From Planctomycetes bacterium syqfu (GTDB lineage Bacteria > Planctomycetota > Phycisphaerae > Phycisphaerales > Phycisphaeraceae): a DNA stretch of 64,000 nucleotides. A program made the position numbers and the translations under genes. Shown here piece by piece: positions 4,545-21,020 of this stretch; position 1 is the stretch's first letter, and each line of letters begins with the position of its first letter. Under the pieces are notes generated by a model. It did no database searches. It was not told the origin of the DNA and saw only the letters and a list, made by a program, of their open reading frames with translations. The DNA lies in assembly GCA_020974905.1 (NCBI GenBank), contig CP087563.1, positions 2,976,001-3,040,000 on the forward strand. The letters run 5' to 3'.

Positions 4545-4704
4545 TTACCGTCCAACAAAATCCGGAAGCGCATTGACCGCCCCATTGACATCGAGCAAGG
4601 CCGGATCGGTATAGAAGTTGGTGGTCAACTCGATCCGGCTGTGCCGCATGGCAGCTTGTGCGACGCGGGGATGGACACCGGCTACGGCCAGGTGTGTGCC
4701 GAAC
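4545..4704 (-). pseudogene. 3' remnant of a tyrosine integrase (C-terminal about 52 codons)
   Basis: On the minus strand this piece reads in frame from FGTHLAVAGVHPRV through MRHSRIELTTNFYTD to NALPDFVGR and a stop at 4545-4547. It matches the ends of the two full integrases at 19391 and 51814 almost residue for residue, including the catalytic His and Tyr region, but homology stops abruptly at about 4704 and the N-terminal 400 residues are absent. It has the same orientation as the two full copies. I infer a relic left boundary of an older, decayed integrative element whose cargo may be the metal-resistance block that follows. Confidence 0.85.
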
Positions 4705-4934: not shown

Positions 4935-4963
4935 GGAACCTTAGCACCCTTGTGACTCGTTGA
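4935..4963 (+). promoter_or_regulatory. Predicted ECF sigma promoter before the efflux operon (GGAAC-N18-CGTTGA)
   Basis: GGAAC at 4935-4939 and CGTTGA at 4958-4963 with an 18-base spacer. The same pattern precedes the ECF sigma gene itself and four other genes of this island. It lies 10-16 bp before the first gene of the cluster, giving a short leader. Confidence 0.65.
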
Positions 4964-4978
4964 TCTGAGTGAGTGCGT

Positions 4979-5404
4979 ATGTCGATTAAACCAACCATCC
5001 TGTCCTGCATGGCCATCCTTGCAGTGTTTGCAGCCCCGTTGCAAGCTGCCTGTTGCCTATCAATGTCCCCAGTACCGGACCAGAATCATGCTGCACATGC
5101 GTGTTGTGATTCGCATCAGCAAAAGACTGCTGCCCCGTCTTTTACCCCGGACATGCAAGCAACTGCATCACCAATGCATTGCGATACATGCAATATGGGA
5201 CCACGACCGCAGCATCACCACAGCCATGATGGCAGCCGCATCGCTCCTGAACCCCCAACAGAGCCTGTTGCATGCTTTGCAAGCACCATGTTCATGACAC
5301 ACCAACTGGAATGGTCGAATCAGGTATATTATTCAAACGCTTTGTCCATCAGCGTCCCTGCGACAGCAACACTCGTTGCCCTGAACTGCCAATTCCGAAA
5401 TTAA
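4979..5404 (+). CDS. Exported Cys/His-rich protein, probable metal-binding
   Basis: About 141 residues with a signal peptide (TILSCMAILAVFAAPLQA) and then a small secreted body rich in Cys and His: AACCLSM, ACCDSHQQ, HCDTCNMG and HHHSHDG. No family is recognised. It is the first gene after a predicted ECF promoter and precedes the CusC-like gene, so a periplasmic role in metal binding or delivery to the efflux pump is likely. A GTG two codons earlier (4973) is an alternative start; neither has a strong ribosome site. Confidence 0.6.
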   Translation: MSIKPTILSCMAILAVFAAPLQAACCLSMSPVPDQNHAAHACCDSHQQKTAAPSFTPDMQATASPMHCDTCNMGPRPQHHHSHDGSRIAPEPPTEPVACFASTMFMTHQLEWSNQVYYSNALSISVPATATLVALNCQFRN

Positions 5405-5525
5405 AGAGGCGCAATAACCAGATTTCTGCGTCTTTGGCAGGTTATCGACTTGATGATCCCACCTATTTATCCGATGACATTTGCATGTTTCTATGCCAAT
5501 CGCTTTCTCAAACACGGACCAACCC

Positions 5526-6890
5526 ATGAGACATTTACTGACCATCGGGTGTCTTGGCAGTGCCTTGTTCCTGCTTGGCTGCCAATCACCATTTGACGAT
5601 TCGTTATACCAGCAATGGCAACGGGATCAATCACATGCTGCCCCGAGTGTACAAGCGCCAAATGCTGCGTCCGATACTCTCCCGGCTGATTCATTTTCCA
5701 AACCGCAATCCCTGGCAGATTTGATTGCTTATGCTCAAGCTCACAATCCGTCGCTTGAGGTTGCCCGGCATCGCATCGAGCAAGCCCAGCAAAGTATTGC
5801 CCAGGTGACCAGCCTGGATGACCCCATGTTCACACTGGCCCCAGTCGGGCAGATGGCACAAACCGCTGACGGTGAAGTCACATTGATGAGTTCACTGAGC
5901 CAGAAGCTGCCACTCTCGGACAAGCTCCAGGTTCGGGGGGATGTCGCCAAGCAACAGGTCAAAATTGCCACCGAGCAGTTACGGCAGACTCAACTGACCG
6001 TCACACGCGATGTCAAGCAAGCGTACTGGCGACACCAGTTGGCGATCAACACGCTTGACGTGCTGAACGAACAGCGCCAATTGATGCAGCAGTTTAATGA
6101 GTCAGCCAACGCAGCCTATCGTGCGGGGAAAACAGATCAGCAGGATTTACTGCGTATTGCCGTGGAAATTAGTTCGCTGGATAATCGCATCACCACGGCA
6201 ACCCAGCAACGTCAAAGTGCCTTGGCACGCCTGAACAGTCTGCTCAATCGTCCGGCATCGGCCCCGTTAACCATTGACAAACCAACCGAAGACTCGCAAG
6301 ACCCTTCGAGCCTTGATGATTGGCAGAAGCTGGCCTTCGACAACGATCCGCAACTGCGCATGGTTCACCTTGCCATTGAGCAGGCACGCAAACAACTGAA
6401 ACTGGCTCACCTTCAGCGTATTCCTGATCTGACTGTCATGCTTAACTATGCAGCGGTCTCTGACACCGGTACATCCATGGCAGCCGATGGCACCGATCAA
6501 CTTTATGCTGGCTTTGGGATCAATCTCCCCATCTGGCAGGACAAACTTGATGCCGCAGAAAAACAGGCCATCGCCCGCATCCGCGAATTAATCTCGCAGT
6601 TGGTTCAAGTGAATAACCAGTTGCAATACAGCGTGGCCGATGCTTACGAACGTGTTGAATCACAACGCAAGCAGGACGCACTGTATCACAGCACGATTCT
6701 GCCCCAGGCTCAACAAGCTGTGGACAGCGCATTAAGCCAATACCGTGCGGGGCGTGGCAACTTTCTGAATCTCATCGACAACTGGCGCAAGCTGCTGGAA
6801 ATCGAACTCATGACCCATCGCAATCATTCACTCTGGAAACAGGATCTGGCCCAATTGCAGTTCCTGGCATCCGTCGAGTCGATCCATTGA
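5526..6890 (+). CDS. cusC: CusC/CzcC-type outer-membrane efflux lipoprotein (TolC family)
   Basis: The start at 5526 puts a lipoprotein signal with lipobox LLGC at the N-terminus; an in-frame ATG 45 bases upstream would spoil it. The mature part has the TolC-family pattern of two long alpha-helical repeats (SLADLIAYAQAHNPSLEVARH and, in the second half, the equivalent stretch ending in DPQLRMVHLAIEQARKQLK). Family members form the outer-membrane channel of tripartite RND pumps. It is followed directly by adaptor and pump genes. The symbol marks the likely role; a divalent-metal CzcC role is not excluded. Confidence 0.88.
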   Translation: MRHLLTIGCLGSALFLLGCQSPFDDSLYQQWQRDQSHAAPSVQAPNAASDTLPADSFSKPQSLADLIAYAQAHNPSLEVARHRIEQAQQSIAQVTSLDDPMFTLAPVGQMAQTADGEVTLMSSLSQKLPLSDKLQVRGDVAKQQVKIATEQLRQTQLTVTRDVKQAYWRHQLAINTLDVLNEQRQLMQQFNESANAAYRAGKTDQQDLLRIAVEISSLDNRITTATQQRQSALARLNSLLNRPASAPLTIDKPTEDSQDPSSLDDWQKLAFDNDPQLRMVHLAIEQARKQLKLAHLQRIPDLTVMLNYAAVSDTGTSMAADGTDQLYAGFGINLPIWQDKLDAAEKQAIARIRELISQLVQVNNQLQYSVADAYERVESQRKQDALYHSTILPQAQQAVDSALSQYRAGRGNFLNLIDNWRKLLEIELMTHRNHSLWKQDLAQLQFLASVESIH

Positions 6891-6922
6891 CACAACCCAA
6901 AAGAACAAGTGAGGACAAACCC

Positions 6923-9220
6923 ATGTCTACGGAACCATCAACACATAAAATCCCACGTTCCATACCCTTTAAAACCATGTCACTACTGCTGGTCGCAAGC
7001 CTGGTCTCGCTTGCCATCGGTGTGTACTTTGCCAAGCCGATCGGTAAGACCGTCGCCAAACTCAAACCGCAATCGCAGACCTCAGACGATGGCCACGATC
7101 ATGCTGGTGTGACGCAATATTCCACCTGCGGTATGCACCCGTGGATCATCCTGCCCAATCCCGGTGCGTGCCCGATTTGCGGGATGGACCTGGTCCCCCT
7201 GGACCCGGCCAAGTTCACCGGCGAGATTGCCATCGACCCGGTCGTGGTACAGAACATGGGCGTGCGCACCGAAAAAGTTGCTGCCGGCCCGTTGGTCAAA
7301 AATATTCGCACCGTGGGCACAGTCGATTACAACGAAACACTCGTCCGTGACATCAACATCAAGATTTCCGGGTGGATTGAAAAATTACACATTGATTACC
7401 TCGGTGCCAAGGTCAAGCAAGGCGATCCTTTGATGGAGATTTATTCGCCAGACCTGTATGCCGCCCAGGAAGAATATCTCATCGCCTACCGCGCCCAACA
7501 ACAGCAGGCTCAAGCCAATTCCACGCTGCTTGAATCAGCCCAAACGCGCTTGCGTTACTACGACATCACCGATGCCCAGATCGCCCAACTGCAAAATGAT
7601 GACAAACCCAGTAAGACGATGACGCTGCAAAGCCCGTACACCGGCGTGGTCATTGCCAAGCATGCCAACGAAGGCATGAAAGTCGATCCGGGCATGCAGG
7701 TGCTGCGCATCGCCGACCTTTCCAAAATCTGGGTCATTGTCACCCTATACGAATATCAACTGCCCTATATCCAGCTGGACAATAAGGCGACGATGAGTTT
7801 GCCTTACATTCCCGGTCATACCTTTGAAGGCACGGTGGTCTACATCTACCCGTTCCTGGATAAGAAAACACGTGAAGTGCAGGTCCGTCTTGAATTCGAT
7901 AACCCCGATGGTCTGCTCAAGCCGGGCATGTTCGCCAATGTCTCGCTGGAAAATCGACTGGCAGATGAACGCACACTCGCACCACGTGAAGCCATCATCG
8001 ACACCGGCGCAAGACAGGTTGCTTTTGTCGCCCTGGGGAAAGGACGTTTTGAACCGCGTGATGTCATCACCGGCGTACGGACCGAAAATGATCGCATCGA
8101 AGTTCTCCAGGGACTCAAACCCGGTGAAACCGTCGTGACCTCCGGCCAATTCCTGCTGGACAGCGAAGCCAAAATCCGTGCAGCATTGGCCCGCATGATC
8201 CAGGGAGATAATGGCAATGACGTTCAAGTCGTCTCCGATACCCAGGCGGCTGGCACCATGCCCGCTTTACCCGATGCATTTGCTAACGCCTTGAACCAGG
8301 TGATCGATGCGTACCTGGCCATCGGCAAGCAATTGTCCAATGACAGCATCGAACATGTCGCCCATCATGCGACAACACTCACACAAGCCATCAACACGTT
8401 GACCGCACAATCCATGCCGGGTAATGAACACTTCTGGCATCAGCACATGCAGATCAAGGATGCCTTACAGGCTTCCGAAGTCTTGACCAATGTTAAAGAC
8501 ATCAAGCAGGCACGTGAGCAGTTTGCACTCGTCAGTATCAACCTGCAACAACTGCTCAAGGACACCGGCGTGCCAGCCAGTCTCGGGCAGACCATTGATG
8601 CCCTGCACTGCCCGATGTTCCGTAACACCCAAGGCGGTAGCCATTGGTTGCAGACGCATGGCGATGTCAAGAATCCATACTTCGGCCAATCCATGCTCGA
8701 CTGCTCGGACAAACAGGAATCATTGCCCATTGCCGGTCAAGCATCGCAGCAAATGACTGATGCCATGTCGAGCAACTTACCCGACGATCCGGCTCAGTTG
8801 CTTGGCCAACTCATTGACCGTTACCTTGCCATACAACACCAATTGACACTGAATCAGATGGACGGGATTGTCGAACAGCTTGCTTCATTCAAACAGCTCA
8901 CCGGACAACTGGCATCAAAACTGCCTGCAAAACAAGCCCCAAACGCAACAGCGATCCTTCAGACATCAGACCTGGACACGCGTGATATCAAGTCCTTGCG
9001 TCGTGGCTTTGCCGATCTCTCGGATGCGATGATCACTTTGGTTCAAGCCAGTAAATCGGAACTGCCGTTACAGCGGAACCTGTACCAGGCTTATTGCCCG
9101 ATGGTCAAAAAGAACTGGTTGCAGGCGGACGAAACAATCCGCAATCCCTACGCCCCACAGATGCTTGACTGTGGCAGCATCAAGACACAACTGACTCAAA
9201 CGGATGGGGGTGAAAAATGA
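6923..9220 (+). CDS. cusB: CusB-type RND periplasmic adaptor with N-terminal heavy-metal-binding domain and duplicated C-terminal Cys motifs
   Basis: The ATG at 6923 is preceded by GAGGA and is preferred to an upstream TTG (6887). Order: one N-terminal membrane segment (about residues 20-36), a heavy-metal-binding domain (YSTCGMHP..., then CPICGMDLVPL), a membrane-fusion-protein core with barrel-sandwich and beta-barrel parts (SPDLYAAQEEYL, LRIADLSKIWVI, GMFANVSL), and an unusual C-terminal extension of about 330 residues holding two repeats of the DUF3347 kind, each with CPM ... NPY ... MLDC. The adaptor links pump and outer channel and hands metal to the pump. The stop overlaps the pump start by 4 bases, suggesting translational coupling. 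Confidence 0.92.
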   Translation: MSTEPSTHKIPRSIPFKTMSLLLVASLVSLAIGVYFAKPIGKTVAKLKPQSQTSDDGHDHAGVTQYSTCGMHPWIILPNPGACPICGMDLVPLDPAKFTGEIAIDPVVVQNMGVRTEKVAAGPLVKNIRTVGTVDYNETLVRDINIKISGWIEKLHIDYLGAKVKQGDPLMEIYSPDLYAAQEEYLIAYRAQQQQAQANSTLLESAQTRLRYYDITDAQIAQLQNDDKPSKTMTLQSPYTGVVIAKHANEGMKVDPGMQVLRIADLSKIWVIVTLYEYQLPYIQLDNKATMSLPYIPGHTFEGTVVYIYPFLDKKTREVQVRLEFDNPDGLLKPGMFANVSLENRLADERTLAPREAIIDTGARQVAFVALGKGRFEPRDVITGVRTENDRIEVLQGLKPGETVVTSGQFLLDSEAKIRAALARMIQGDNGNDVQVVSDTQAAGTMPALPDAFANALNQVIDAYLAIGKQLSNDSIEHVAHHATTLTQAINTLTAQSMPGNEHFWHQHMQIKDALQASEVLTNVKDIKQAREQFALVSINLQQLLKDTGVPASLGQTIDALHCPMFRNTQGGSHWLQTHGDVKNPYFGQSMLDCSDKQESLPIAGQASQQMTDAMSSNLPDDPAQLLGQLIDRYLAIQHQLTLNQMDGIVEQLASFKQLTGQLASKLPAKQAPNATAILQTSDLDTRDIKSLRRGFADLSDAMITLVQASKSELPLQRNLYQAYCPMVKKNWLQADETIRNPYAPQMLDCGSIKTQLTQTDGGEK

Positions 9221-12200
9221 TTGCCAAACTCATTCGTTGGTGTGTCAATAATCGCATGATGGTGATGTTACTGACCGGCTTTCTGCTGATCGGTGGTGTT
9301 TGGGCAGCCCGTCACATCACCGTCGATGCCATCCCCGATCTGTCGGACGTACAGGTCATCATCAAGACCGAGTATCCCGGCCAAGCCCCGCGCATCGTCG
9401 AGGACCAGGTGACCTACCCGCTGACCACGGCCATGCTCGCGGTCCCGCAAGCCAAGGTTGTGCGCGGCTACAGCATGTTCGGCACCAGCTTCGTCTATAT
9501 CATCTTTGAAGATGGCACCGATCTTTACTGGGCACGCAGTCGCGTCCTCGAACAACTCAACTTTGTCTCCGGGCAGTTGCCATCCAATGTCAGCCCGCAA
9601 CTGGGCCCCGATGCCACCGCTGTAGGCTGGGTTTACCAATACGTGCTCAAGACCGGCAACTACTGCCCGGATCACCCGCAGGGACTCTGGTACGACCCGG
9701 TCGCTGACACGTGGTATGCCAATAAACACGAAGCGCCCGAGGACGAAGCAATCCAGCGCCGCCTGATCCTTAAGCGCACATTCGCGGATCGTACCGACTG
9801 CCCGTTGGGGCATAAGCCATTGGTTGAACCCCAGATCGACATGGCCCAACTGCGCAGCTTACAGGACTGGTATTTGCGTTATGAATTGACCAGTGTCGAT
9901 GGTGTAAGTGAAGTCGTTCCCATCGGCGGGTTCGTCAAGCAGTACCAGGTTGTTGTCGACCCGGTCAAGCTGTTGGCTCTGAATCTACCTTTAAACAAGG
10001 TCAAAATGGCGATCCGCAATGCCAACGTCGATGTGGGCGGACGCCTGATTGAAATGAGTGAAACCGAGTACATGGTGCGCGGCATCGGCTATCTCGGATC
10101 ACTGGACAGCAAGCAAGCGCCCAATGCTGCTCTGCGGACTTCCCAGACTTTGTCTGATCTTCAGCAGATTGCCCTGGGAGCCAACGAAGACGGCAAACCG
10201 ATTTACCTGCAGGACGTGGCGGACATACGCACCGGCTCGGAAATCCGGCGTGGTGTAGCAGACTGGAATGGTGAAGGTGAAACTGTCGGTGGCGTGGTGG
10301 TGATGCGTTTCGGCGAAAATGCCAAACGAACCATTGAGATGGCCAAAGAAAAACTACAGACACTGGCTCAGGGTTTACCGGCAGGTGTATCGCTTGATGT
10401 GGCCTACGACCGCAGCGACCTGATTGAACGTGCCGTGAGTACCGTCTATCACACGCTGCTTGAAGAAGTCAGCGTTGTTGGTCTGATCATCATCCTGTTT
10501 TTGCTGCATGCACGCAGTGCGTTGGTGGCCGCATTTGTGCTTCCCACAGGTGTCTTGCTGACGCTTCTGGTGATGTACACCATGGGCATCAACGCCAACA
10601 TCATGAGTCTGGGTGGCATTGCGATTTCCATCGGTGTGATGGTGGACAGCAGCATTGTCATGGTGGAGAACGCGCACAAACACCTGGAACACCGCGATGA
10701 AAAAATAGCCAAGGGCCTCGACGCTCCAAGTCGGATTGAGGCCATCGGTGAAGCGGCAGCGGAAGTCGGGCCGACCTTGTTTTTCAGCCTGCTGATCATT
10801 ACGGTCAGCTTCCTGCCGATTTTTGTACTCGGCGAACAGTCCGGGCGCATGTTCAAACCATTGGCCTACACCAAGACCTTTGCCATGACATCCGCAGCGT
10901 TGTTGGCAATTACTATCATCCCGGTCTTGATGGTCTATTTGATCTCCGACCGCATGCTGCCTCAAACCTGGAGCAAGACCAAGCGTTACACGGTGTATGC
11001 GTTGACAATCGGCCTGCCGGTTGTGTTGCTGGCAGTGGTCCCGTTACCGCATCTGGCTGCCTACCGTCTGTGGCTGTGCATTGGTTGGGCGGCGGCATCG
11101 AGCATGATCCTGCTACCCCAGAAAATATATCCCGAAGCGAAAAACCCGATCAGCCTGATTCTCCAGAAAGCCTACAACCCGTTTTTTGTCTTTGCGATGC
11201 AGTATCGCTGGGGGATGCTCATTGGTGCAGCGTTGCTCATCGGCGTGACGATCATTCCACTTAGGCAACTGGGCAGCGAGTTCATGCCTCCTCTTGAAGA
11301 AGGTGACCTGCTGTACATGCCGACGACCGACCCTGGGATCAGCGTCAGCAAAATAGGCCAAATCCTTCAGCAGACGGATCGACTCATCAAACAGTACCCG
11401 GAAGTCAAAAGTGTCTTTGGCAAAGCCGGTCGCGCGGATACTGCAACCGACCCGGCACCACCGAGTATGCTCGAAACCACGATCATTCTGCATCGTGACA
11501 AATCCAAATGGCGAAACAAACCGGTGTCTCGGTTTTACGATCACTGGCCGAACTGGCTGGCTGCCATCCCTCGGAAAATCTGGCCCAACACCGAAAAAAT
11601 CACCATTGACGAATTGGTGTATGGTTACAACCTGCCCGATGGAACGCACGTTCCCGGACTCAATGACACGATCCAATTCCCGGGTCTGACCAATGCCTGG
11701 ACGATGCCGATCAAGACGCGCATCGACATGCTTTCGACGGGCATCAAGACGCCGGTGGGGATCAAAGTAATGGGGCCGGATTTGCAAACACTGGCAAACC
11801 TGGCGGAAAAGACTGCCACGGCAGTCAAGTCCGATCCCAAGTTAAGCAAGTACACCACCAGCGCCTTTGCAGAAAAAAGTGTCGGTGGCAATTACTTTGA
11901 CATCCGCATCAATCGGGAACTGATCGCGCGCTACGCTTTGTCCGTCAGTGATGTACAGGACGTGATCATGAGCGCGATCGGCGGGATGAGTATCACTTCC
12001 ACCGTCGAAGGTCTGGAACGTTACCCGGTGAATCTGCGATACCCACAAGAACTGCGTGACGACATCGACAAATTACGTCAGACACTTGTCAGTACACCTT
12101 CTGGCGCACAGGTCCCGTTGGGTCAACTCGCCGAGATTGATCTGCACAAGGGGCCACCGATGATCAAGAGTGAAAACGCTCGACTCACGGCATGGGTGTA

Positions 12201-12861
12201 CGTGGACATTGCTGGTCTGGATGTCGGCACGTATGTCAAGCAGGCTCAACAGGTCGTTGCTTCGCAGGTTCCGTTACCCCAAGGCTACAACATCGTCTGG
12301 TCAGGGCAGTACGAATACATGCAGGCAGCACGCAAGCGTCTGATGATGGTCGTGCCAATCGCAGCAGTACTGATTCTGTTGTTACTCTACCTGGCAACGA
12401 ACAGTTGGCTGCGCGTGGGCATCGTACTGCTGGCTGTACCGTTTAGCCTGGTGGGTGCGATCTGGCTGCTTTACTTCCTGGATTACAATTTGTCATTGGC
12501 TGTCTGGGTCGGCGTAATCGCACTGGCTGGGCTCGATGCCGAAACCGGCCTGGTGATGTTGCTGTACCTGGAAAACAGTTATGACCAATTCAAGTCCGAA
12601 GGTCGCATGAAAGATCGCGTGGACCTTTGGCATGCGATTCATGATGGTGCGGTACAGCGTATCCGTCCCAAGACAATGACCGTGGTCACCACCTTCATCG
12701 GCCTGGTTCCACTGCTTTGGGCCTCGGGTGCCGGTGCCGACACCATGCGTCGTCTGGCGGCCCCCATGATCGGTGGCCTGGGCACCAGCTTCATCATGGA
12801 ACTACTGCTTTACCCGGTAATCTTCTACCTGGTCAAACTACACAGCGTCAAGCACGATTGA
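9217..12861 (+). CDS. cusA: CusA/CzcA-type heavy-metal efflux RND transporter
   Basis: A 1214-residue inner-membrane RND pump. It opens with the typical segment LIRWCVNNRMMVMLL and carries the periplasmic porter loops, two sets of membrane helices, and in the proton-relay region GLDAETGLVMLLYL, the acidic motif characteristic of heavy-metal RND pumps and closest to the monovalent Cu/Ag group. It is about 170 residues longer than the classic CusA; one insertion at about residues 145-205 brings YCPDHP and DCPLGH, possibly extra metal ligands. It follows channel and adaptor genes, so a complete tripartite pump is encoded. Metal specificity (Cu/Ag rather than Zn/Co/Cd) is inferred. Confidence 0.94.
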   Translation: MIAKLIRWCVNNRMMVMLLTGFLLIGGVWAARHITVDAIPDLSDVQVIIKTEYPGQAPRIVEDQVTYPLTTAMLAVPQAKVVRGYSMFGTSFVYIIFEDGTDLYWARSRVLEQLNFVSGQLPSNVSPQLGPDATAVGWVYQYVLKTGNYCPDHPQGLWYDPVADTWYANKHEAPEDEAIQRRLILKRTFADRTDCPLGHKPLVEPQIDMAQLRSLQDWYLRYELTSVDGVSEVVPIGGFVKQYQVVVDPVKLLALNLPLNKVKMAIRNANVDVGGRLIEMSETEYMVRGIGYLGSLDSKQAPNAALRTSQTLSDLQQIALGANEDGKPIYLQDVADIRTGSEIRRGVADWNGEGETVGGVVVMRFGENAKRTIEMAKEKLQTLAQGLPAGVSLDVAYDRSDLIERAVSTVYHTLLEEVSVVGLIIILFLLHARSALVAAFVLPTGVLLTLLVMYTMGINANIMSLGGIAISIGVMVDSSIVMVENAHKHLEHRDEKIAKGLDAPSRIEAIGEAAAEVGPTLFFSLLIITVSFLPIFVLGEQSGRMFKPLAYTKTFAMTSAALLAITIIPVLMVYLISDRMLPQTWSKTKRYTVYALTIGLPVVLLAVVPLPHLAAYRLWLCIGWAAASSMILLPQKIYPEAKNPISLILQKAYNPFFVFAMQYRWGMLIGAALLIGVTIIPLRQLGSEFMPPLEEGDLLYMPTTDPGISVSKIGQILQQTDRLIKQYPEVKSVFGKAGRADTATDPAPPSMLETTIILHRDKSKWRNKPVSRFYDHWPNWLAAIPRKIWPNTEKITIDELVYGYNLPDGTHVPGLNDTIQFPGLTNAWTMPIKTRIDMLSTGIKTPVGIKVMGPDLQTLANLAEKTATAVKSDPKLSKYTTSAFAEKSVGGNYFDIRINRELIARYALSVSDVQDVIMSAIGGMSITSTVEGLERYPVNLRYPQELRDDIDKLRQTLVSTPSGAQVPLGQLAEIDLHKGPPMIKSENARLTAWVYVDIAGLDVGTYVKQAQQVVASQVPLPQGYNIVWSGQYEYMQAARKRLMMVVPIAAVLILLLLYLATNSWLRVGIVLLAVPFSLVGAIWLLYFLDYNLSLAVWVGVIALAGLDAETGLVMLLYLENSYDQFKSEGRMKDRVDLWHAIHDGAVQRIRPKTMTVVTTFIGLVPLLWASGAGADTMRRLAAPMIGGLGTSFIMELLLYPVIFYLVKLHSVKHD

Positions 12862-12888
12862 TCAATCCCATAACCTGTAAACTCACTG

Positions 12889-12928
12889 CCCGCGAGAAGA
12901 CATCCGTTGCGTCTTCTCGCGGGTTTTT
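12889..12928 (+). terminator. Rho-independent terminator of the efflux operon
   Basis: CCCGCGAGAAGAC and GTCTTCTCGCGGG form a 13-bp stem, followed by TTTTTGTT, 28 bases after the pump gene stop. Confidence 0.92.
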
Positions 12929-13054
12929 GTTGGATTGACCGTCCGTCTTCATTGGCGAAGCAATCAGTAATTGGCAATAAGATGTTGGAAGTCATCCCAG
13001 GATAATGAATCAGAAAGTTGTCTATCCAAAAGCATGAGCATCATCATCCGCCCA

Positions 13055-13092
13055 ACAAAAAAGCATCGGCATAATTTACCGATGCTTTATGA
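13055..13092 (-). terminator. Rho-independent terminator of the sigma/anti-sigma operon
   Basis: AAGCATCGG and CCGATGCTT pair around a 9-base loop; read on the minus strand the stem is followed by a run of T. It lies 30 bases past the anti-sigma gene stop. Confidence 0.85.
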
Positions 13093-13120
13093 TGACGGGG
13101 AGTATCGTTTGTCTGACGTG

Positions 13121-13801
13121 TTACATGGCAATGCCCTGAGCAACCGCGAGTAATTCTTCCATATCAGCACTGCCCATCACGCACAGCCAACGGTCACCTT
13201 TATGAGCCATAACCATATTGACCTTATCGACGGTATGCGTGCAAAATTCACGACCATCACGAATGACCGTTTCCCCTTCGGGACAATGCAGTTTTTTGCC
13301 ATCAGCCAAGGCAACGGTGATCAGGTGGCCATTGCGTTGGAGACTAACGCAAGTCAAGGTGACACCCTTGTGTTCATGCAGACAATAGGATTGCATCTGC
13401 CCCGGCAGATCAGGCACCGGCATGGCACCCTTGGCCTGGGCTGCCAGCATGGCGTTGGCTTGCTCGACGCTGGTTACTTTCATCTGTTCAGCCATGTCGC
13501 CTGAAACTTCGTGGTAAATCTGCGCCAATCCCGCAGGCGCAGCAATCACGGGTTGCGTTGTGTTTTGCATCACAAGCAGGCCCAGCATTACAGTAATCAG
13601 AATCATGGCTGCGGCCGACATGGGTCGCCATCTCAGCCAGGTTGGTATCCGCAGCGTTTGCGGTTCATCCTGCTGCACCACGTCACGCATCAGCGTTTGA
13701 AGATGCTCTGCCAAATGCGATGTATCCACCGGCTTGGAGGCTAATTTACCAAGCCGTGCGGATGTTGCCTGATCCAATTTGTCATGGGTGTTGTCGTTCA
13801 T
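13121..13801 (-). CDS. Probable membrane-anchored anti-sigma factor
   Basis: The ATG at 13801 overlaps the sigma-factor stop by 4 bases (ATGA), so the two are translationally coupled. About 226 residues: a cytoplasmic N-terminal part of about 65 residues, one membrane helix (MSAAAMILITVMLGLLVM), and an extracytoplasmic domain with several Cys and His (YCLHEHKG, TLTCVSL, LHCPEG, EFCTHTVD). This is the usual build of an ECF anti-sigma factor that releases its sigma on an outside signal; the Cys/His content suggests that the signal is metal. No classic zinc-finger anti-sigma motif is evident at the N-terminus, so the sigma-binding part is of an unrecognised type. Confidence 0.75.
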   Translation of the reverse strand: MNDNTHDKLDQATSARLGKLASKPVDTSHLAEHLQTLMRDVVQQDEPQTLRIPTWLRWRPMSAAAMILITVMLGLLVMQNTTQPVIAAPAGLAQIYHEVSGDMAEQMKVTSVEQANAMLAAQAKGAMPVPDLPGQMQSYCLHEHKGVTLTCVSLQRNGHLITVALADGKKLHCPEGETVIRDGREFCTHTVDKVNMVMAHKGDRWLCVMGSADMEELLAVAQGIAM

Positions 13802-14400
13802 GGCGTTGACTCCCTGGCCGCAACCCAACCGCGTTGCAAAGCCAATTGGTAAAGACGATCCCGCAGCATGCTGCGCCCGCGATGGGTTCGACTCTTGATC
13901 GTGCCCAGAGCGACATTGAGGATCGCTGCCACCTCAACTTGTTCCATTTTCTCCACATCCACGAGCAGCAATGTCCAGCGGATGTCCTCGGGCAACTCAC
14001 CCAAGGCTTTGATGATTGCGTCATCTTCAAACCGGCCCATCAAGGCTTCAGGTTCCTCCCACTGTTCATCAAACTCGCCAGCCGCCTTCGACGAATCAGG
14101 CACGGTCACTTCAAGCACATCGGAAGCCACCGACACTTCGTCAGGCCTGTTGCGGCCAACGCGCATCTGGTCGATGTACGTCCGTCGGAGTATGGTCATC
14201 AGCCATGCCTTGAGATTCGTATCATCCTGGTAGGAATCAATCCCACGCATCGCTTTAACCATGGTCTCCTGGGCCAAATCCTCAGCCTGCTGGCTGTGCC
14301 GGGTCAGGTACTGGGCAGTCCGCAACACCATCGGCATCAACGGCCAAACCAGTTGCTTGAATCTCTGAGCCTGAGCTTGGCTGATCGGCCCGTCACGCAT
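13798..14400 (-). CDS. ECF-type RNA polymerase sigma factor
   Basis: The start is taken at the second Met (14400) because AGAAGG lies 9 bases upstream, while the first ATG (14409) touches that site. The protein has region 2 (DLAQETMVKAMRGIDSY, AWLMTILRRTYID) and region 4 with its helix-turn-helix (EKMEQVEVAAILNVALGTIK, SRTHRGRSMLRDRL), joined by an acidic linker and lacking regions 1 and 3, which defines an ECF sigma. It is predicted to read the GGAAC-N17/18-CGTT promoters found before itself, the efflux operon and four other genes of this island. Confidence 0.92.
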   Translation of the reverse strand: MRDGPISQAQAQRFKQLVWPLMPMVLRTAQYLTRHSQQAEDLAQETMVKAMRGIDSYQDDTNLKAWLMTILRRTYIDQMRVGRNRPDEVSVASDVLEVTVPDSSKAAGEFDEQWEEPEALMGRFEDDAIIKALGELPEDIRWTLLLVDVEKMEQVEVAAILNVALGTIKSRTHRGRSMLRDRLYQLALQRGWVAARESTP

Positions 14401-14414
14401 CGGCTCCATCCTTC

Positions 14415-14443
14415 TAAACGAGTTTCACCGGCCCAAAAGTTCC
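14415..14443 (-). promoter_or_regulatory. Predicted ECF autoregulatory promoter (GGAAC-N18-CGTTTA)
   Basis: Read on the minus strand, GGAAC at 14443-14439, an 18-base spacer, and CGTTTA at 14420-14415, ending 15 bases before the chosen sigma start. Confidence 0.65.
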
Positions 14444-14515
14444 ATAAACGCAAAGAGATTGTAGTCGATGTGGCATGACGGCAAAAGATCATCAATCAGC
14501 ATACCCAAGCCAGCT

Positions 14516-14587
14516 AAAAGAAAAAGACCGTGTTGACCGCAGCAACCGGCTACTGATCATTGAGCCTGTTGCTGCGGAACACGGTCT
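14516..14587 (-). terminator. Rho-independent terminator of the lipoprotein gene
   Basis: A long inverted repeat with arms AGACCGTGTT and GTTGCTGCGG pairing with their complements across a 21-base loop; on the minus strand it is followed by TTTTTCTTTT. It lies between the lipoprotein stop and the sigma promoter and separates the two units. Confidence 0.85.
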
Positions 14588-14668
14588 ATACACAACGGAG
14601 TTTGATTGGATATGAACGCTACGCATGCTATCTGTCATGCCTGCGAAAATCACACGCCACTGGAGCAA

Positions 14669-14998
14669 TCAGGGGGTGTATGTATCCATCATGCTTTTTT
14701 CAATATGGCATATCTTCAGACGACCGCCACAGGATTCGCAGGCTTCACCCATGGGGTTGTATTCGACTTCACCACGTGCGGCCTTATCACATTTGGCGCA
14801 AACGATTTGCTTTTCTTCCTGAATCCGCATGACGTTGGTCTTACCGTCCTTGTTAACGGTTTTCACCCAGACGGTCTTGCAGGAATCACACTTGACGGCT
14901 TGCGCATTGCCCGTGGCTTGGGTCGATGCACATCCTGCAAACAGGAAGGCCATGCCCAATAACGTGATGGACAACAAAAGGGTTTTGACTGATTTCAC
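14669..14998 (-). CDS. Small lipoprotein with a double CxxC (zinc-ribbon-like) core
   Basis: The start is a GTG at 14998 with AAGGAGC five bases upstream. A lipoprotein signal peptide ends in the lipobox FAGC. The 85-residue mature part holds CDSCKTVWV, CAKCDKA and CESCGG, three Cys pairs that fit metal binding. No family recognised. It has its own predicted ECF promoter (15044-15071) and its own terminator, so it is a single-gene unit of the metal regulon, probably displayed on a membrane as a metal scavenger or sensor. Confidence 0.75.
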   Translation of the reverse strand: MKSVKTLLLSITLLGMAFLFAGCASTQATGNAQAVKCDSCKTVWVKTVNKDGKTNVMRIQEEKQIVCAKCDKAARGEVEYNPMGEACESCGGRLKICHIEKSMMDTYTP

Positions 14999-15043
14999 AA
15001 GAAGCTCCTTATGGCAGAAATGTTCGCCCCCACATACCAGTTA

Positions 15044-15071
15044 TCAACGATCCTTAATCACCTGACGTTCC
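15044..15071 (-). promoter_or_regulatory. Predicted ECF promoter of the lipoprotein gene (GGAAC-N17-CGTTGA)
   Basis: On the minus strand GGAAC at 15071-15067 and CGTTGA at 15049-15044, 17-base spacer, about 45 bases before the GTG start. The rest of the 14999-15242 gap shows nothing else. Confidence 0.6.
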
Positions 15072-15242
15072 ACAAAACACTCTTTCCATAAAGCTAAACG
15101 TAAGGTGTTGTGTTTGTATCGAATGAAATCAATGTGACATTAACCATTGTGGAAAAAGTTCTTCAATATTGCTCAAAACCTTCATACGGTGTAACAGATC
15201 CGGACGAATCGTGTTCAAGATCATACCTGTACAAAACCGTCT

Positions 15243-15689
15243 TCAGCTTTCATTGAGGGTACCTGTATGTTTAGCCGGCATGATTCCGCGAAAAACCTTT
15301 ACATTGACCTGAGCAGGCGCGGCCGAGTCAATCGGCAGGTCCAGAGAAAATGGTGCGCGTCGCAATCCCTTGACGATCAAAAGCGTTTGCGGGTACGACA
15401 CCAGTTGCCGTGCCAGGACCTGCCTACGGGCATCAAGCACGGTGATCTGGACATAGCCATGGATATCCGCAGGGAACAACCATGTGCGCCGGACAGTACC
15501 TGTAACATGCAACTGCTTGTCCTGTAATTGAGCCTGAGCACGACTGATGTACAAACCGGACGTATCGACGATCTTGACATCAAGGACTTGTCCAGGTTCC
15601 TGGGGAATCTGGGCATGGGTCATACTGACGAACCCCAGCAATAAAACAAGCGTAGCAACACCATACAAACGTGCGCGTGAATGAAACAT
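15243..15689 (-). CDS. Exported protein of unknown function
   Basis: A 148-residue protein with a clear signal peptide (LYGVATLVLLLGFVSMTHA) and a mature part of alternating hydrophobic residues that reads as a beta-sandwich (LQDKQLHVTGTVRRT, GYVQITVLDARRQVLA). No Cys and no family recognised. AAAGGATG lies upstream of the ATG. A predicted ECF promoter at 15795-15823 places it in the metal regulon; a periplasmic chaperone-like role is only a guess. Confidence 0.6.
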   Translation of the reverse strand: MFHSRARLYGVATLVLLLGFVSMTHAQIPQEPGQVLDVKIVDTSGLYISRAQAQLQDKQLHVTGTVRRTWLFPADIHGYVQITVLDARRQVLARQLVSYPQTLLIVKGLRRAPFSLDLPIDSAAPAQVNVKVFRGIMPAKHTGTLNES

Positions 15690-15794
15690 GGCTGACTCAT
15701 CCTTTCAACTTGCGGACCTTTGATAGGGGACAAAGAAAATAAGTACGGCTGATATCAACGATAGCCTGACAACGATGAACTCCCATAACAAGAA

Positions 15795-15823
15795 AGAACG
15801 AGTCCATGCCTCCATAAAGTTCC
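15795..15823 (-). promoter_or_regulatory. Predicted ECF promoter of the exported-protein gene (GGAAC-N18-CGTTCT)
   Basis: On the minus strand GGAAC at 15823-15819 and CGTTCT at 15800-15795. It is arranged back to back with the plus-strand site at 15880-15907 in the 319-base gap 15690-16008, which holds no gene. Confidence 0.6.
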
Positions 15824-15879
15824 ATGTCACGGTCACATTGGGGAATTGTCCAGAAATTTCTCAATTTTCATGCTTACGT

Positions 15880-15907
15880 GGAACCTTTCACGGTTGCCAC
15901 ACGTTTT
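15880..15907 (+). promoter_or_regulatory. Predicted ECF promoter of the TRASH-domain gene (GGAAC-N17-CGTTTT)
   Basis: GGAAC at 15880-15884 and CGTTTT at 15902-15907, 17-base spacer, about 100 bases before the ATG at 16009. Confidence 0.6.
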
Positions 15908-16008
15908 GATAGTTGAACGACTACTGGAACGGGATACTGTCAATTCCCACCCAAACACATTGCACCTTCAAGTGCGTTCCAGATATTGCACAAATGAAAG
16001 GGTTTTTC

Positions 16009-16731
16009 ATGCTTCGAACAATCACTTGCATCCTAACCGTACTGACAATGACCATGGTTTCCTACTCCGTCACATTCGCGGCAGATGACAGCCATGATTC
16101 TCACAACCAGGGCAAACACATGGATATGAGCCATGCAGCATCACCGAACCATGATCCTTACACATTGTCCGTCGACCCTTTGGGTGATTCACTGACCAAC
16201 GTCAACAAACCTGTTGCCGTGATCCATGACGGACGCCAACTGCTCTTTGCCAGCAATGAAAATGCACACACTTTCAAACAGCATCCCGACAAGTATCTGG
16301 CCGATGTGGATGCGATGATCATCAAGCAACAGGCACCGACCTATCCGCTGACCACCTGCGTCGTTTCCGGCGAAAAACTCGGAGAAATGGGCAAACCCAT
16401 ACAGCGCGTGATCGGTAACAGGCTTGTGACATTCTGCTGCTCGGGTTGTATTGGCAAAGCTCAAAAAGAACCCGCAAAATACCTTGCCAAAATCGATGCA
16501 GCGGTCATCGAAACTCAAATGAAAGATTATCCTCTGACAACGTGCCTTGTCTCCGGCGAGAAACTCGGTGACGAGATGGGCGCACCAATCAATTATGTGG
16601 CCGGCACACAACTCGTTGAATTCTGCTGCAAGGGCTGCATCAAAAAGTTTGAAAAGAATCCCGCCCAATATCTGGGCAAACTCAGTCAAACCACTCAACC
16701 GCAAGATTCACATTCAAACCACAACCATTAA
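16009..16731 (+). CDS. Exported metal-binding protein with two TRASH/YHS-like modules
   Basis: The ATG at 16009 is chosen because AAAGGG lies 6 bases before it; a start at 15994 would disturb the signal peptide (TITCILTVLTMTMVSYSVTFA). After a His-rich linker the protein has two copies of a YHS/TRASH-type unit: LTTCVVSGEKLG ... TFCCSGC and LTTCLVSGEKLG ... EFCCKGC, plus one degenerate unit before them. A His-rich tail (HSNHNH) ends it. The family binds heavy metals through such Cys clusters. It probably works in the periplasm as a metal buffer or chaperone for the efflux pump, under ECF control. Confidence 0.8.
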   Translation: MLRTITCILTVLTMTMVSYSVTFAADDSHDSHNQGKHMDMSHAASPNHDPYTLSVDPLGDSLTNVNKPVAVIHDGRQLLFASNENAHTFKQHPDKYLADVDAMIIKQQAPTYPLTTCVVSGEKLGEMGKPIQRVIGNRLVTFCCSGCIGKAQKEPAKYLAKIDAAVIETQMKDYPLTTCLVSGEKLGDEMGAPINYVAGTQLVEFCCKGCIKKFEKNPAQYLGKLSQTTQPQDSHSNHNH

Positions 16732-16751
16732 CACAGGATCATTTACATGAG

Positions 16752-16979
16752 TTGTGTTCAAAACATAAAAAGCGGTGGCCGATGATTGTTTTTCTGATCG
16801 TGCTTGGGAGTGTGATCCTGATTGCGGTCCTTGCGGACGCCCAGACACGTAACACTTCGACGGAAATAACACCTACCGATCAATCACAGGTGTTGGATGC
16901 TGCCTCTTCAGAACAAGCCTGTTCCGGCCATGCGGCTTCTGAACCATCCTGCTGTGCCAAACCGCCACAGAAGAAGTAA
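16752..16979 (+). CDS. Small single-pass membrane protein with a Cys-rich tail
   Basis: 75 residues from a TTG start, or about 65 from the ATG at 16782: one membrane helix (MIVFLIVLGSVILIAVLA) and a short outward tail with CSGHAASE and PSCCAKPPQKK. An ATG with a ribosome site (16747) opens a different frame of only 12 codons, so either a weak TTG start is used or the 5' end carries a frameshift. It lies 20 bases after the TRASH-domain gene and probably shares its transcript. The terminal CC motif suggests metal binding. No family recognised. Confidence 0.55.
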   Translation: MCSKHKKRWPMIVFLIVLGSVILIAVLADAQTRNTSTEITPTDQSQVLDAASSEQACSGHAASEPSCCAKPPQKK

Positions 16980-17067
16980 TGACAAATGAATCACCCATGT
17001 CTTGACAAGACCATCTGCCTGCCATCAAGCATCATGATTGATGCATGACACCGTTTTCTACCTCACG

Positions 17068-17107
17068 CCGAGTGGTGTTCCCGTCGCACCGCTCGGTTTT
17101 TTATTTT
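17068..17107 (+). terminator. Rho-independent terminator
   Basis: CCGAGTGGTG and CACCGCTCGG form a 10-bp stem with one G-T pair, followed by TTTTTTATTTT. It closes the TRASH-domain/small membrane protein unit. Confidence 0.88.
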
Positions 17108-17169
17108 CACCGCAGAAATCAATTGGCCAATACATTCTCCATTTACGCCATATCGAAGGAGATTTCACA

Positions 17170-18054
17170 ATGCACAGTCATACAATTTGCATGAGAAAGC
17201 GCATTATCTTCCTGATGAGTCTATCAGTTGTTGCCGGCACGATGTTGGATCAACCACTCCATGCACAGCAATCGCCAGACATGGCATCTGACAACATGCA
17301 ACTGACCAACAAGACTTGCCCGGTGACAACAGGAGAAGCTGTTGATCCCCAACAATGGGTTGATTACCAGGGCCAGCGAATCTATTTCTGTTGTGGAACC
17401 TGCAAACGCAAATTTGAACGCAATCCCCAAGCATACATGGATAACCTGCCGAAGCTGGCCACGGTGACTCCCGCCACAAGTCCCGAGGCGAACGCACATG
17501 ATGACCACGACCATGAGGCTGCAGTTGCCAACGGCCACGATTCACAAGAACCCAGCAACGAAGCAGTAGAGCATGATCACAGTGCTCATCAACATGCTGA
17601 TAATCAGACTGGCATTGCAAAACTCATCGCATGGTTAGGCAAGTTCCATCCACCATCAGTACATTTCCCGATCGCCTTGCTCATCAGTGCTGCTCTGGCC
17701 GAGTTATTGCTGATCATCACAAAACGTACCTTGTTTGATGCTGCTGCCCAGTTCTGCGTTTGGGTCGGTAGTATCGGCACGTTCAGTGCTGTCACGTTGG
17801 GATGGTTCCTGGCCGGTTTTCGGCTCAATGACCCGGATTGGATCATGACCGCCCATCGTTGGTTAGGTACAGCCGTCGGTTTGTCTGCTGTCTTAATCCT
17901 GATGTTGTGCATCGCATCTCACGAAGGTGGCACACGTCAATTACAGTGGCGATGGTGGTTTCGCGTCATGCTTTTTATCACTGCAATTGCAGTAGCCATG
18001 AATGGATTCCTTGGCGGTGCCCTGATATATGGTTTGAACCATTATGCATGGTAA
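17170..18054 (+). CDS. Exported TRASH-domain protein fused to a DUF2231-type membrane domain
   Basis: The ATG at 17170 has AGGAG 8 bases upstream. About 294 residues: signal peptide, a TRASH/YHS-like unit (NKTCPVTTGEAVDP ... IYFCCGTCKRKFERNP), a His/Asp-rich linker (HDDHDHEAA, HDHSAHQHAD), then four membrane helices beginning KFHPPSVHFPIALL, the opening of the DUF2231 family. Such fusions occur in metal-resistance islands of Planctomycetota and Bacteroidota; the membrane domain may be redox- or metal-linked but has no established reaction. It lies after a terminator and no ECF-type site precedes it, so it is separately transcribed. Confidence 0.75.
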   Translation: MHSHTICMRKRIIFLMSLSVVAGTMLDQPLHAQQSPDMASDNMQLTNKTCPVTTGEAVDPQQWVDYQGQRIYFCCGTCKRKFERNPQAYMDNLPKLATVTPATSPEANAHDDHDHEAAVANGHDSQEPSNEAVEHDHSAHQHADNQTGIAKLIAWLGKFHPPSVHFPIALLISAALAELLLIITKRTLFDAAAQFCVWVGSIGTFSAVTLGWFLAGFRLNDPDWIMTAHRWLGTAVGLSAVLILMLCIASHEGGTRQLQWRWWFRVMLFITAIAVAMNGFLGGALIYGLNHYAW

Positions 18055-18174
18055 TCCCATCGTTAGCAGACAGCATTCGCAACTTCGTGCGTCATGCCAT
18101 AGTAACGTCTGTGGCTGAGTCGATTTAATCTGTCACGATTCCCTGTTGCATAGACACATTGCTTTTATGATCAA

Positions 18175-18210
18175 ACAAAAAGACCCGGCAAGACCAAAGT
18201 CATTGCCGGG
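18175..18210 (-). terminator. Rho-independent terminator of the small exported protein
   Basis: CCCGGCAA (18184-18191) and TTGCCGGG (18203-18210) pair; on the minus strand the stem is followed by TCTTTTTG. The sequence beyond (18213-18231) carries CATCCGGGGATTCCGGGGG, an occurrence of the TTCCGGGGG motif that breaks the IS21 gene further on. Confidence 0.85.
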
Positions 18211-18287
18211 CGCATCCGGGGATTCCGGGGGCATGAGTGAAAATTTATTGATGGACTGGTGCGTTTATGCCGGGGTGTACCGGGCAA

Positions 18288-18554
18288 TCACTGAGCAGAT
18301 GGCACACGAACATGAATCACACGCGACGACCTGTGTGGGGCGATCCAGCGAAGCTCCGTTTCATAGCGGTAGTTGCCAGCATCAAGTTGAGCCTGATTGC
18401 CTTTGAACGCAAAGGGTTTCTGGTCGACCTTAGTATGCGTCCGGGCAAAGCTTGAGGAGCGGTAGTGGGTACTGCCGATCCCCGGGCCGGCATAGGCCAC
18501 TGTCGAAAGGCTGAACAAAGCCACAAAGGCGGTGAGGGAAAGAATGCGTTTCAT
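18288..18554 (-). CDS. Small exported protein of unknown function
   Basis: The ATG at 18554 has TAGGAG 7 bases upstream. 88 residues: a signal peptide (MKRILSLTAFVALFSLSTVA) and a short basic mature part (HYRSSSFARTHTKVDQ, ETELRWIAPHRSSRV). No family recognised. It is preceded by a predicted ECF promoter and followed by its own terminator, so it is probably a small periplasmic member of the metal stress regulon. Confidence 0.6.
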   Translation of the reverse strand: MKRILSLTAFVALFSLSTVAYAGPGIGSTHYRSSSFARTHTKVDQKPFAFKGNQAQLDAGNYRYETELRWIAPHRSSRVIHVRVPSAQ

Positions 18555-18627
18555 ATCGAGTCTCCTAAAGGCATCGGATGTCCATGAGCTGACGTGTGAT
18601 GCCAAGCCGTTCGTCATCTCATCCATC

Positions 18628-18656
18628 TAAACGAACGGCAATGAGGTGAAGGTTCC
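18628..18656 (-). promoter_or_regulatory. Predicted ECF promoter (GGAAC-N18-CGTTTA)
   Basis: On the minus strand GGAAC at 18656-18652 and CGTTTA at 18633-18628, about 75 bases before the small exported protein. Confidence 0.6.
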
Positions 18657-18801
18657 AAAAGGGTCAGTTTTTTCTTAAATTTTTTGACTAAAAAATAGAC
18701 AGCTCAATCAGGTAAACTGACGGATTGCCTGAATATTGTGCTACGGTTGACACAAATTCCCCACTTATAAGCCTGGCACATGTCTTGCGTTTGATCTCAT
18801 C

Positions 18802-19386
18802 ATGAGGTTTTGGCAATTTTCAATTCTCTTTTCAATCATGTTGTTAACTGGATGCAGCACCATCGGGCAAACACCTGACGTGATATCACACCATAAGAAG
18901 TGGGCTCTCCAGCATGGCGGTATTCTGGTTGATCAAAGACACCAACGATTGAATCAAACCTGTCATCGTCTGGCCCCTGCATGTCACGACATTGTCATTG
19001 ATCCCCATGTTCTGGATAGCAACAATTTGGCTGCTTATTCCTGGCCCAACGGGGAACTGTATGTCACACGGGGTATGATCGACGCAGCCAGCCCGGACGA
19101 ATTGGCATCCGTGGTTGCACATGAAATTGGACATCTCATTGCCCATCACAATCATTCAGATGCCACAACCATGTTGCTTGGGCAAAAGCATGATGTAAAT
19201 CCTGAAATTCAATCAGATGCATTGGGATGCCGCATCCTGGCAGCCTGCAACATTTCAACGACAGCCATGCTACATACTCTCCAGAAGGTCAAGCAATCCA
19301 CCCCAACCCACGATCCAGCGCATGCTCTGCTCAACCAACGAATTCTACGACTTCAATCAGACATGAGCAATCCGTTTCCCAATTGA
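18802..19386 (+). CDS. M48-type metalloprotease-like lipoprotein
   Basis: 194 residues with a lipoprotein signal (lipobox LTGC), then the zinc motif HEIGH in ASVVAHEIGHLIAHH and a downstream EIQSDALGCRIL that supplies the third ligand Glu, the arrangement of M48 (BepA/LoiP-like) proteases. It is shorter than most family members and lacks the TPR tail. The likely role is periplasmic quality control of damaged outer-membrane or secreted proteins, fitting the metal-stress context. Its stop lies 4 bases from the convergent integrase stop, so the element A boundary abuts it. Confidence 0.85.
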   Translation: MRFWQFSILFSIMLLTGCSTIGQTPDVISHHKKWALQHGGILVDQRHQRLNQTCHRLAPACHDIVIDPHVLDSNNLAAYSWPNGELYVTRGMIDAASPDELASVVAHEIGHLIAHHNHSDATTMLLGQKHDVNPEIQSDALGCRILAACNISTTAMLHTLQKVKQSTPTHDPAHALLNQRILRLQSDMSNPFPN

Positions 19387-19390
19387 TCAT

Positions 19391-20800: not shown

Positions 20801-21020
20801 GATTTTTTACGCATGCCTTTCATGTTGGTGTCGTGTTGTGTGACACCATTCAGGCTCATGTCCGCTCGGATTGCAAGACCCAATCTGGCATCGTCGGCAA
20901 AATATTCTCACATGCCGTCAATATTCAAAAACACCTGAAAAATAAGACTCAAATGATCGAATGATGCCTTGATTCATGTCTGTTTTCATGGCTTGATGTG
21001 TCCGTAGAAAGGACATCAAC
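20801..21020. other. Conserved divergent control region between integrase and the plus-strand unit
   Basis: About 220 bases almost unchanged between element A and element B (53221-53452). It holds GGTGTC and GACACC as an inverted pair around a 9-base spacer, and an AT-rich stretch (AAAAACACCTGAAAAATAAG). It must contain the integrase promoter and that of the divergent small genes. No excisionase gene is recognised beside it. Confidence 0.5.

Follow-up and report, generated by a model that had tools for sequence, protein, structure and literature searches.

The 64,000-nucleotide window from Planctomycetes bacterium syqfu (contig CP087563.1, positions 2,976,001 to 3,040,000; "the window" is this whole stretch) carries a metal island that encodes a CusCBA-like efflux system, an extracytoplasmic function (ECF) sigma factor and its predicted membrane anti-sigma factor. 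Sites of the form GGAAC-N17/18-CGTT precede several of the genes, and the island is predicted to be an ECF regulon. Its genes are listed below with strand and supporting evidence; matrix sites are those of the promoter matrix described further on.

4979..5404, +, small exported protein rich in Cys, His and Met, leader gene of the cus operon (open reading frame (ORF), no Pfam family)
5481..6890, +, CusC-like outer-membrane protein (NCBIfam outer-membrane efflux models, below cut-off)
6887..9220, +, CusB-like adaptor (NCBIfam CusB 3.7e-59, below cut-off; RND_mfp above its cut-off)
9217..12861, +, CusA-like RND pump, three CusA methionines kept (TIGR00914 above cut-off)
13124..13801, -, predicted anti-sigma factor, overlapping the end of the sigma gene (partner gene conserved beside sigma)
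13798..14400, -, ECF sigma factor, sigma2 and sigma4 (Pfam Sigma70_r2 8.4e-17, Sigma70_r4_2 2e-10; ORF opens at 14409)
14669..14998, -, Cys-rich lipoprotein, zinc-ribbon-like (weak matches only; target in relatives)
15243..15689, -, exported protein of 148 amino acids (aa) (ORF, no family)
16009..16731, +, exported YHS/TRASH-domain protein, start at 15994 or 16009 (Pfam YHS 4e-15)
17170..18054, +, YHS and DUF2231 membrane protein without a matrix site of its own (DUF2231 above cut-off; YHS 29.6 bits, cut-off 30.3)
18288..18554, -, small exported protein, a target conserved in relatives (matrix sites precede the family in 9 of 39 loci)
19391..20800, -, tyrosine recombinase at the island edge (recombinase models below cut-off; 3' end repeated at 4559-4703)

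All six sites reported in a preliminary description of this DNA were recovered by an exact scan, its minus-strand positions being 2 too low because CGTTNN was counted there. The exact pattern occurs seven times in the window against 0.97 expected, and none of 100 shuffles reached seven. The six predicted promoters in the island are as follows, with their scores under an independent matrix.

4935-4961, +, predicted ECF promoter of the cus operon (N18), 30.4 bits
14417-14443, -, predicted autoregulatory promoter of the sigma and anti-sigma genes (N18), 30.6 bits, predicted start at about 14407
15046-15071, -, weak predicted promoter of the Cys-rich lipoprotein (N17), 10.9 bits, inside noise
15797-15823, -, predicted promoter facing the 148-aa exported protein (N18), 22.0 bits
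15880-15905, +, predicted promoter of the YHS/TRASH protein (N17), divergent to 15797-15823, 29.2 bits
18630-18656, -, predicted promoter of the small exported protein (N18), 31.2 bits, the best in the window

The seventh exact motif, at 44403-44429 (+), lies away from the island in repeated DNA, of which the genome has two more copies, one identical and one nearly so; it scores 16.7 bits and is probably a chance match. The sites had been described as lying just before gene starts. Counting from the last base of CGTT to the probable start codon, this fits the cus leader gene (17 nt), the sigma gene (16 nt, to its second ATG) and the lipoprotein gene (47 nt), and is looser for the small exported protein (75 nt), the YHS protein (88 or 103 nt, from two possible starts) and the 148-aa exported protein (107 nt).

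The anti-sigma factor, used as a probe, matched 8 genomes in the phylum set (392 searched) and 36 in the order set (400 searched), counting the window's own. Its profile matched 14 of the 392 phylum genomes, seven at 1e-71 or better and all within the order, one at 8e-13 at class level (G287) and six at 1.7e-4 to 7.4e-4; among the genomes searched, strong scores are thus confined to one planctomycete order. A search with the sigma factor beyond the phylum set found close relatives at two loci, both from this order (Phycisphaerales bacterium UBA7800 and Phycisphaeraceae isolate NAT22). In total, 39 loci (L numbers) from 36 genomes (G numbers) were compared, window included; the set does not contain G646 (E 5.7e-5) or a short second match in G500. 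The loci are partly dependent, as L090 and L091 have the same sites and the window and second islands, L035/L087 and L080/L086 are pairs within one genome. A sigma homologue is present in all 39 loci and the anti-sigma factor was found by BLAST in 38; the remaining locus, L100, was matched in the order-wide anti-sigma search. The class-level relative G287 has an RND pump and a P-type ATPase nearby (translations only), no [GT]GAAC-N16 to 19-CGTT motif occurs in its 20 kb, and the system is not claimed beyond the order.

The second, diverged island (island B; loci L031/L032, G000:C1:2798000-2831999) lies in the same genome ~176 kb upstream of the window island. The two are 99.5% identical in the cus genes, 94% over 16078-19546, 90% in the sigma and anti-sigma genes and 77% in the lipoprotein region. 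Because the cus parts are nearly identical, the cus site was counted once. The other sites of island B are still recognisable despite changes in spacers and flanks; the site before the small exported protein, for example, has N17 in place of N18. At the lipoprotein site of island B the -10 element is CATT.

The preliminary description had placed an ECF gene with a membrane anti-sigma factor in the middle of the island, which agrees with the domains found and with a single-helix partner conserved beside the sigma gene. Only sigma2 and sigma4 domains were identified by Pfam, and NCBIfam sigma70-ECF is above its cut-off. Among the best 25 of 88 matching NCBIfam models, no named ECF subgroup passes its cut-off, only the general sigma70-ECF model doing so; the best match is SigH_actino (114.7 bits, cut-off 251.55). 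The likely start codon is the second ATG (14400), because island B has ATA in place of the first.

The sigma gene has, by sequence, a predicted promoter of its own of the GGAAC/CGTT type. In 33 of 38 loci (L092, whose sequence ends before its promoter, was excluded) the motif [GT]GAAC-N18-CGTT occurs within a 150-base stretch at the sigma start; when the spacer was varied between 10 and 26, a single further match appeared, at 25. Shuffled windows gave 0.015 matches per set, and other gene starts of the same loci gave 34 of 452, a control which includes real targets. A T nine bases after CGTT (25 of the 33) and a purine ten bases after it (28 of the 33) would mark the transcription start, placing it at about 14407 in the window and giving a predicted mRNA leader of ~7 nt before the ATG at 14400. 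A leaderless sigma mRNA, starting at the first ATG, was considered and dropped on account of the ATA in island B. The near-constant spacer, together with the shared gene families behind the motif, strongly supports the earlier reading of the sites as an ECF regulon.

A promoter matrix was built from 54 sites with spacer 18 in loci outside the window's genus, excluding L068 and L087 (same genus) and L091 (twin of L090). In the 64-kb window its first five ranks are 18656-, 14443-, 4935+, 15880+ and 15823- (31.2 to 22.0 bits), the sixth being the copy at 44403. The reversed window gave scores up to 14.0 bits, and the top scores of five Markov sequences ranged from 10.0 to 21.5. At 15 bits or more the matrix identified 98 sites over the 39 loci (627 kb) and none in the reversed sequences, although most of these loci had supplied training sites; the six loci outside training (the window, island B, L034, L035, L068 and L087) hold 30 sites, against none when reversed. 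The site at 15797-15823 is further supported because a matching divergent site faces copA in island B, L034 and L035. The lipoprotein site described earlier exists and its gene is a target in relatives, where homologues in L034, L069, L083, L085 and L086 have sites of 18.1-35.0 bits, but it is weak in this genome.

Behind the 98 matrix sites, a shared-family ORF was found at 84, another ORF only at 10, and no ORF of at least 55 aa at 4. Sites precede the sigma gene in 29 of the 39 loci, the YHS/TRASH protein in 16, the small exported protein in 9, genes labelled CopA in 7, the lipoprotein and CusC in 5 each, a multicopper oxidase and the first cus gene in 3 each and CusB in 2; CusA, a SpoIIE phosphatase and the 148-aa exported protein are each preceded by a site in one locus. 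The kinds of target in the window thus recur elsewhere except for the 148-aa protein, the first cus gene doing so only within the window's own genus. Pfam confirmed multicopper oxidases in L085 and L087, CopA-type ATPases in island B and L069, CusB with heavy-metal domains in L093 and OEP in L072 and L093. YHS/TRASH models match in L071, L074, L080, L087 and L090, weakly in L078 and not in L079; L087 also has a protein just below the Metal_resist cut-off. Three of the CopA labels (L070, L087 and L088) are short proteins of 65-225 aa and not ATPases, that of L087 having a YHS domain, and a 150-aa protein behind a site in L075 shows no copper family. The CopA sites at 20946 in island B and 5647 in L035 and the CusA site at 3159 in L083 fall within coding sequence and may be false.

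The metal concerned is suggested by the pump, which matches E. coli CusA at 2.5e-298 and the zinc pump ZneA at 4.7e-118. All three CusA-site methionines (M573/M623/M672) are aligned with Met in the window pump (in the alignment the chain number is the native number + 8). Together with the copper genes among the relatives' targets and the soft-metal ligands of the anti-sigma factor, this points indirectly to Cu(I)/Ag(I) as the probable trigger. Copper control of Cus systems is known from CusRS, CueR and their relatives, and the preliminary description had proposed an ECF factor in their place. No genome match to the CueR-type or CopR/SilR-type families lies above the family cut-offs, which are strict, each being passed in 1 of 14 control genomes. 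Moreover, 60 response-regulator stretches match the CopR/SilR-type family below its cut-off, three of them at 156-230 bits and none in the two islands.

The anti-sigma factor has one hydrophobic helix at about residues 60-78, the most hydrophobic 19-residue stretch starting at residue 60. The window protein matches no Pfam or NCBIfam family above cut-off, and a set of 30 sequences gave no Pfam match better than 0.001. The N-terminal part contains a conserved LDxAT-RL--L---PVD motif. Zinc-binding anti-sigma factors (ZAS) have a Cys/His motif in the cytoplasmic N-terminus; residues 1-60 are without Cys in the window protein and in 31 of 38 sequences, with one Cys in the other 7, and assignment to the ZAS type was rejected. 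By contrast with this N-terminus, the periplasmic part has conserved candidate ligands: among the 38 sequences C140 is present in 38, C139 in 36, M196 in 33, C207 in 32, H96 in 31, M198 in 29 and H189 and M209 in 28 each.

Structure models, both built on an alignment of three near-identical sequences, have a mean pLDDT of 48.4 for the full-length protein and 77.5 for the periplasmic part alone. The latter comprises two helices, seven strands and a final helix, with C139/C140 on strand 1, and the last three strands carry H189, M196/M198 and C207/M209; if these strands pair as hairpins, one face would display the Met, Cys and His side chains together. In VIA-align, where rows within 1 Z are tied, the six top rows for the periplasmic part are RseB/MucB C-terminal domains (Z 9.2-9.6 against 8.6 for the next), and the full model gives the same ranking (9.8-10.7 against 9.1). 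PF17188 is matched weakly in 3 of 30 anti-sigma members (best 0.0011). No solved relative was found by sequence, the REST corepressor (from 0.019) and CarD (0.96) being taken as chance. The models suggest that the periplasmic domain has a probable RseB-C-like fold.

The sites, their conservation, the target families and the conservation of the ligands are read from the sequences themselves, and they strongly support use of the predicted promoters by an ECF sigma factor, which we infer to be the one encoded in the island. Most probably the island is a local, self-contained and autoregulated copper/silver defence regulon, in which the sigma factor is released when the anti-sigma domain binds metal. 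Without metal, the single-pass anti-sigma factor would hold the ECF sigma factor at the inner membrane. A rise in periplasmic Cu(I)/Ag(I) would lead to binding at the Cys, Met and His residues of the RseB-C-like domain, and the sigma factor would then be freed, presumably either by proteolysis, the route known for RseA, or by a conformational change. RNA polymerase would start at GGAACYT-N15/16-CGTT promoters, ~10 bases after CGTT, so that the sigma factor would drive its own operon with the anti-sigma gene, the CusCBA operon, the YHS/TRASH protein and the small exported protein, with the Cys-rich lipoprotein as a weaker target and, in sister islands, CopA as well.

Several results weigh against this interpretation. 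The preliminary description had looked to a genome-wide search; run with the bare pattern over 7.38 Mb, it found no enrichment (137 exact matches, 244 in the reversed control), and the refined pattern with spacer 18 gave 11 matches against 31 in the reversed control. Refined counts per genome do not clearly separate genomes with the sigma/anti-sigma pair from those without it, and the three refined matches of G407, which has the pair, all lie away from it. The exact sigma promoter is absent in L077, L082, L096, L099 and L101 (5 of 38); L101 is from another family of the phylum and its sigma factor is 33% identical. In the window the lipoprotein site is inside the matrix noise and the fifth site (15823-, 22.0 bits) is close to one Markov top of 21.5. 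Two proteins behind sites, a cytochrome c protein (L088) and a 295-aa protein (L085), show no copper family. Foldseek gave no match with E <0.001, its first ranks being a lupin PR-10 protein for the full model and TM1622 for the periplasmic part. Finally, the window anti-sigma factor has Tyr139, where 36 of 38 relatives including island B have Cys, and Tyr96 (as in island B, L035 and L068), where 31 of 38 have His. The Tyr for Cys replacement may make the window and island B anti-sigma factors differ in sensitivity.

The conserved cysteines also bear on the alternative that fares best, namely that the sigma factor does use these promoters but that the anti-sigma factor senses thiol oxidation or envelope damage, from copper and other stresses, and not the metal itself. 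The best conserved periplasmic residues are the CC pair, the predicted RseB-C-like fold is that of an envelope-stress sensor, and the metal-linked anti-sigma factor NrsF needs two conserved cysteines (PMC3511200). A simple disulfide switch, however, would have no need of Met196, Met198, Met209 and His189, which are also conserved; moreover, many of the targets are copper-type genes and the window copy lacks an intact CC pair. We regard this alternative as unlikely, though it deserves to be taken seriously beside metal sensing.

Whether the neighbouring sigma factor is the one that reads the motif depends more on where the matches lie than on their number. Of the 137 bare matches, 11 fall within the two islands (six in the window island and five in island B), which make up 0.46% of the genome; since the islands share a recent duplication, these clustered sites are not all independent. 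The first 30 bare matches, all elsewhere in the genome, score -5.2 to 17.7 with the matrix, two exceeding 15. For the refined pattern with spacer 18, five of the 11 genome matches are inside the islands, and duplication makes two of these five identical; with spacer 17, four of 18 are (control 21). In ten other genomes the spacer-18 pattern gave 3-14 matches in the six with the pair and 0-4 in the four without a detected pair (G401 4, G364 3, G095 2, G034 0), and G419, G394, G397, G413 and G657 have matches at the locus of the pair. The location of matches, not the count per genome, is therefore the informative test, and since the bare motif is not enriched genome-wide the regulon looks local. 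Another ECF factor of the genome might read the motif, the neighbouring one having a different target: the genome has nine sigma-like matches with E of 0.001 or lower, a number which includes the two island copies, and GGAAC/CGTT is a common ECF promoter type. Against this, the motif precedes this sigma factor's own gene in 33 of 38 loci and refined matches occur at the pair's locus in five of the six pair-bearing genomes scanned, which makes it very improbable. The possibility that these matches arose by chance or were left over from duplicated DNA, as the non-independent cus site of the 99.5% identical cus parts and the lack of genome-wide enrichment of the bare pattern might suggest, is contradicted by conservation across genera, the zero matrix sites in reversed loci and the ranking by the independent matrix, and can be set aside almost entirely.

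The surroundings of the islands show further features. A 145-base repeat, corresponding to the 3' end of the tyrosine recombinase gene in the island, is present in the window at 4559-4703, 19411-19555 and 51831-51975 and bounds the metal island. Across the genome it has 22 matches of 74-100% identity, some of them incomplete; 21 share one strand and 21 fall within 2.27-3.17 Mb (G000:C1), a distribution which looks like a long array of islands with one common attachment sequence. Arsenic-type genes, assigned from ORF translations alone, lie on the flanks of island B, as does a second RND pump gene that has a repeat copy of its own; the region is a cluster of metal islands. Between its lipoprotein and sigma genes, island B encodes a membrane protein that contains a HAMP and a SpoIIE phosphatase domain (L031:16715-18217), a homologue of which stands behind a matrix site at L068:4193-5635. 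None was seen in the window island, and the protein might provide a second, partner-switching input in island B and L068.

Copper-linked ECF factors are already known (CorE and SigAb); the present system differs in its predicted sensor architecture and in having copper genes directly behind the promoter. Among better-known systems, CnrYXH is a metal-responsive ECF system held at the membrane which controls an RND metal pump, as predicted here, and differs in having a separate periplasmic sensor, CnrX, beside the tiny anti-sigma factor CnrY, and in responding to nickel/cobalt. RpoE-RseA-RseB likewise has a membrane anti-sigma factor, with RseB as a separate protein; here a domain predicted to resemble the RseB C-terminal domain (Z 9.6, 2.6 Å, 91 aligned) would be part of the anti-sigma factor and equipped with Cys, Met and His. 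CnrH-CnrY of Cupriavidus is named in PMC8103513. CorE of Myxococcus xanthus is an ECF factor which drives copper genes (a multicopper oxidase and a copper ATPase) and is controlled by its own Cys-rich C-terminal extension and not by an anti-sigma factor (PMC10141476). The copper-gene targets are common to both, whereas here a membrane anti-sigma factor is the likely sensor; a CorE-like (ECF238) assignment was rejected, as the sigma translation contains no Cys and a membrane partner is present. SigAb-AabA/AabB of Acinetobacter baumannii is an autoregulated ECF system with anti-sigma genes in the operon, as here; it is copper-induced and needed for copper resistance, with three direct targets and its metal genes controlled indirectly (PMC12153292), whereas here the copper genes themselves carry the predicted promoter. 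Sigma-F/NrsF of Caulobacter is similar in its two conserved, probably periplasmic anti-sigma cysteines and small heavy-metal regulon, and differs in its response to chromium and cadmium, its promoter (GTAACC-N16-CGAA) and the lack of strong autoregulation of sigF (PMC3511200). No study of a copper ECF factor in Phycisphaerales was recognised in the open literature searched.

These findings suggest that the sigma/anti-sigma pair controls Cus in many members of a planctomycete order, and that several unnamed Cys-rich exported proteins are suspected copper genes. The anti-sigma factor may represent a new type of metal-sensing anti-sigma factor. We tentatively consider, with more doubt than confidence, that one membrane protein combines an RseA-like inhibitor with an RseB-C-like sensor, the sensor part having become a direct periplasmic Cu(I)/Ag(I) receptor; this would form a portable copper switch on duplicated islands, with a sensitivity that may be shifted in the Tyr-for-Cys variant of the window. 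The sites would also provide a compact, possibly copper-inducible set of promoters.

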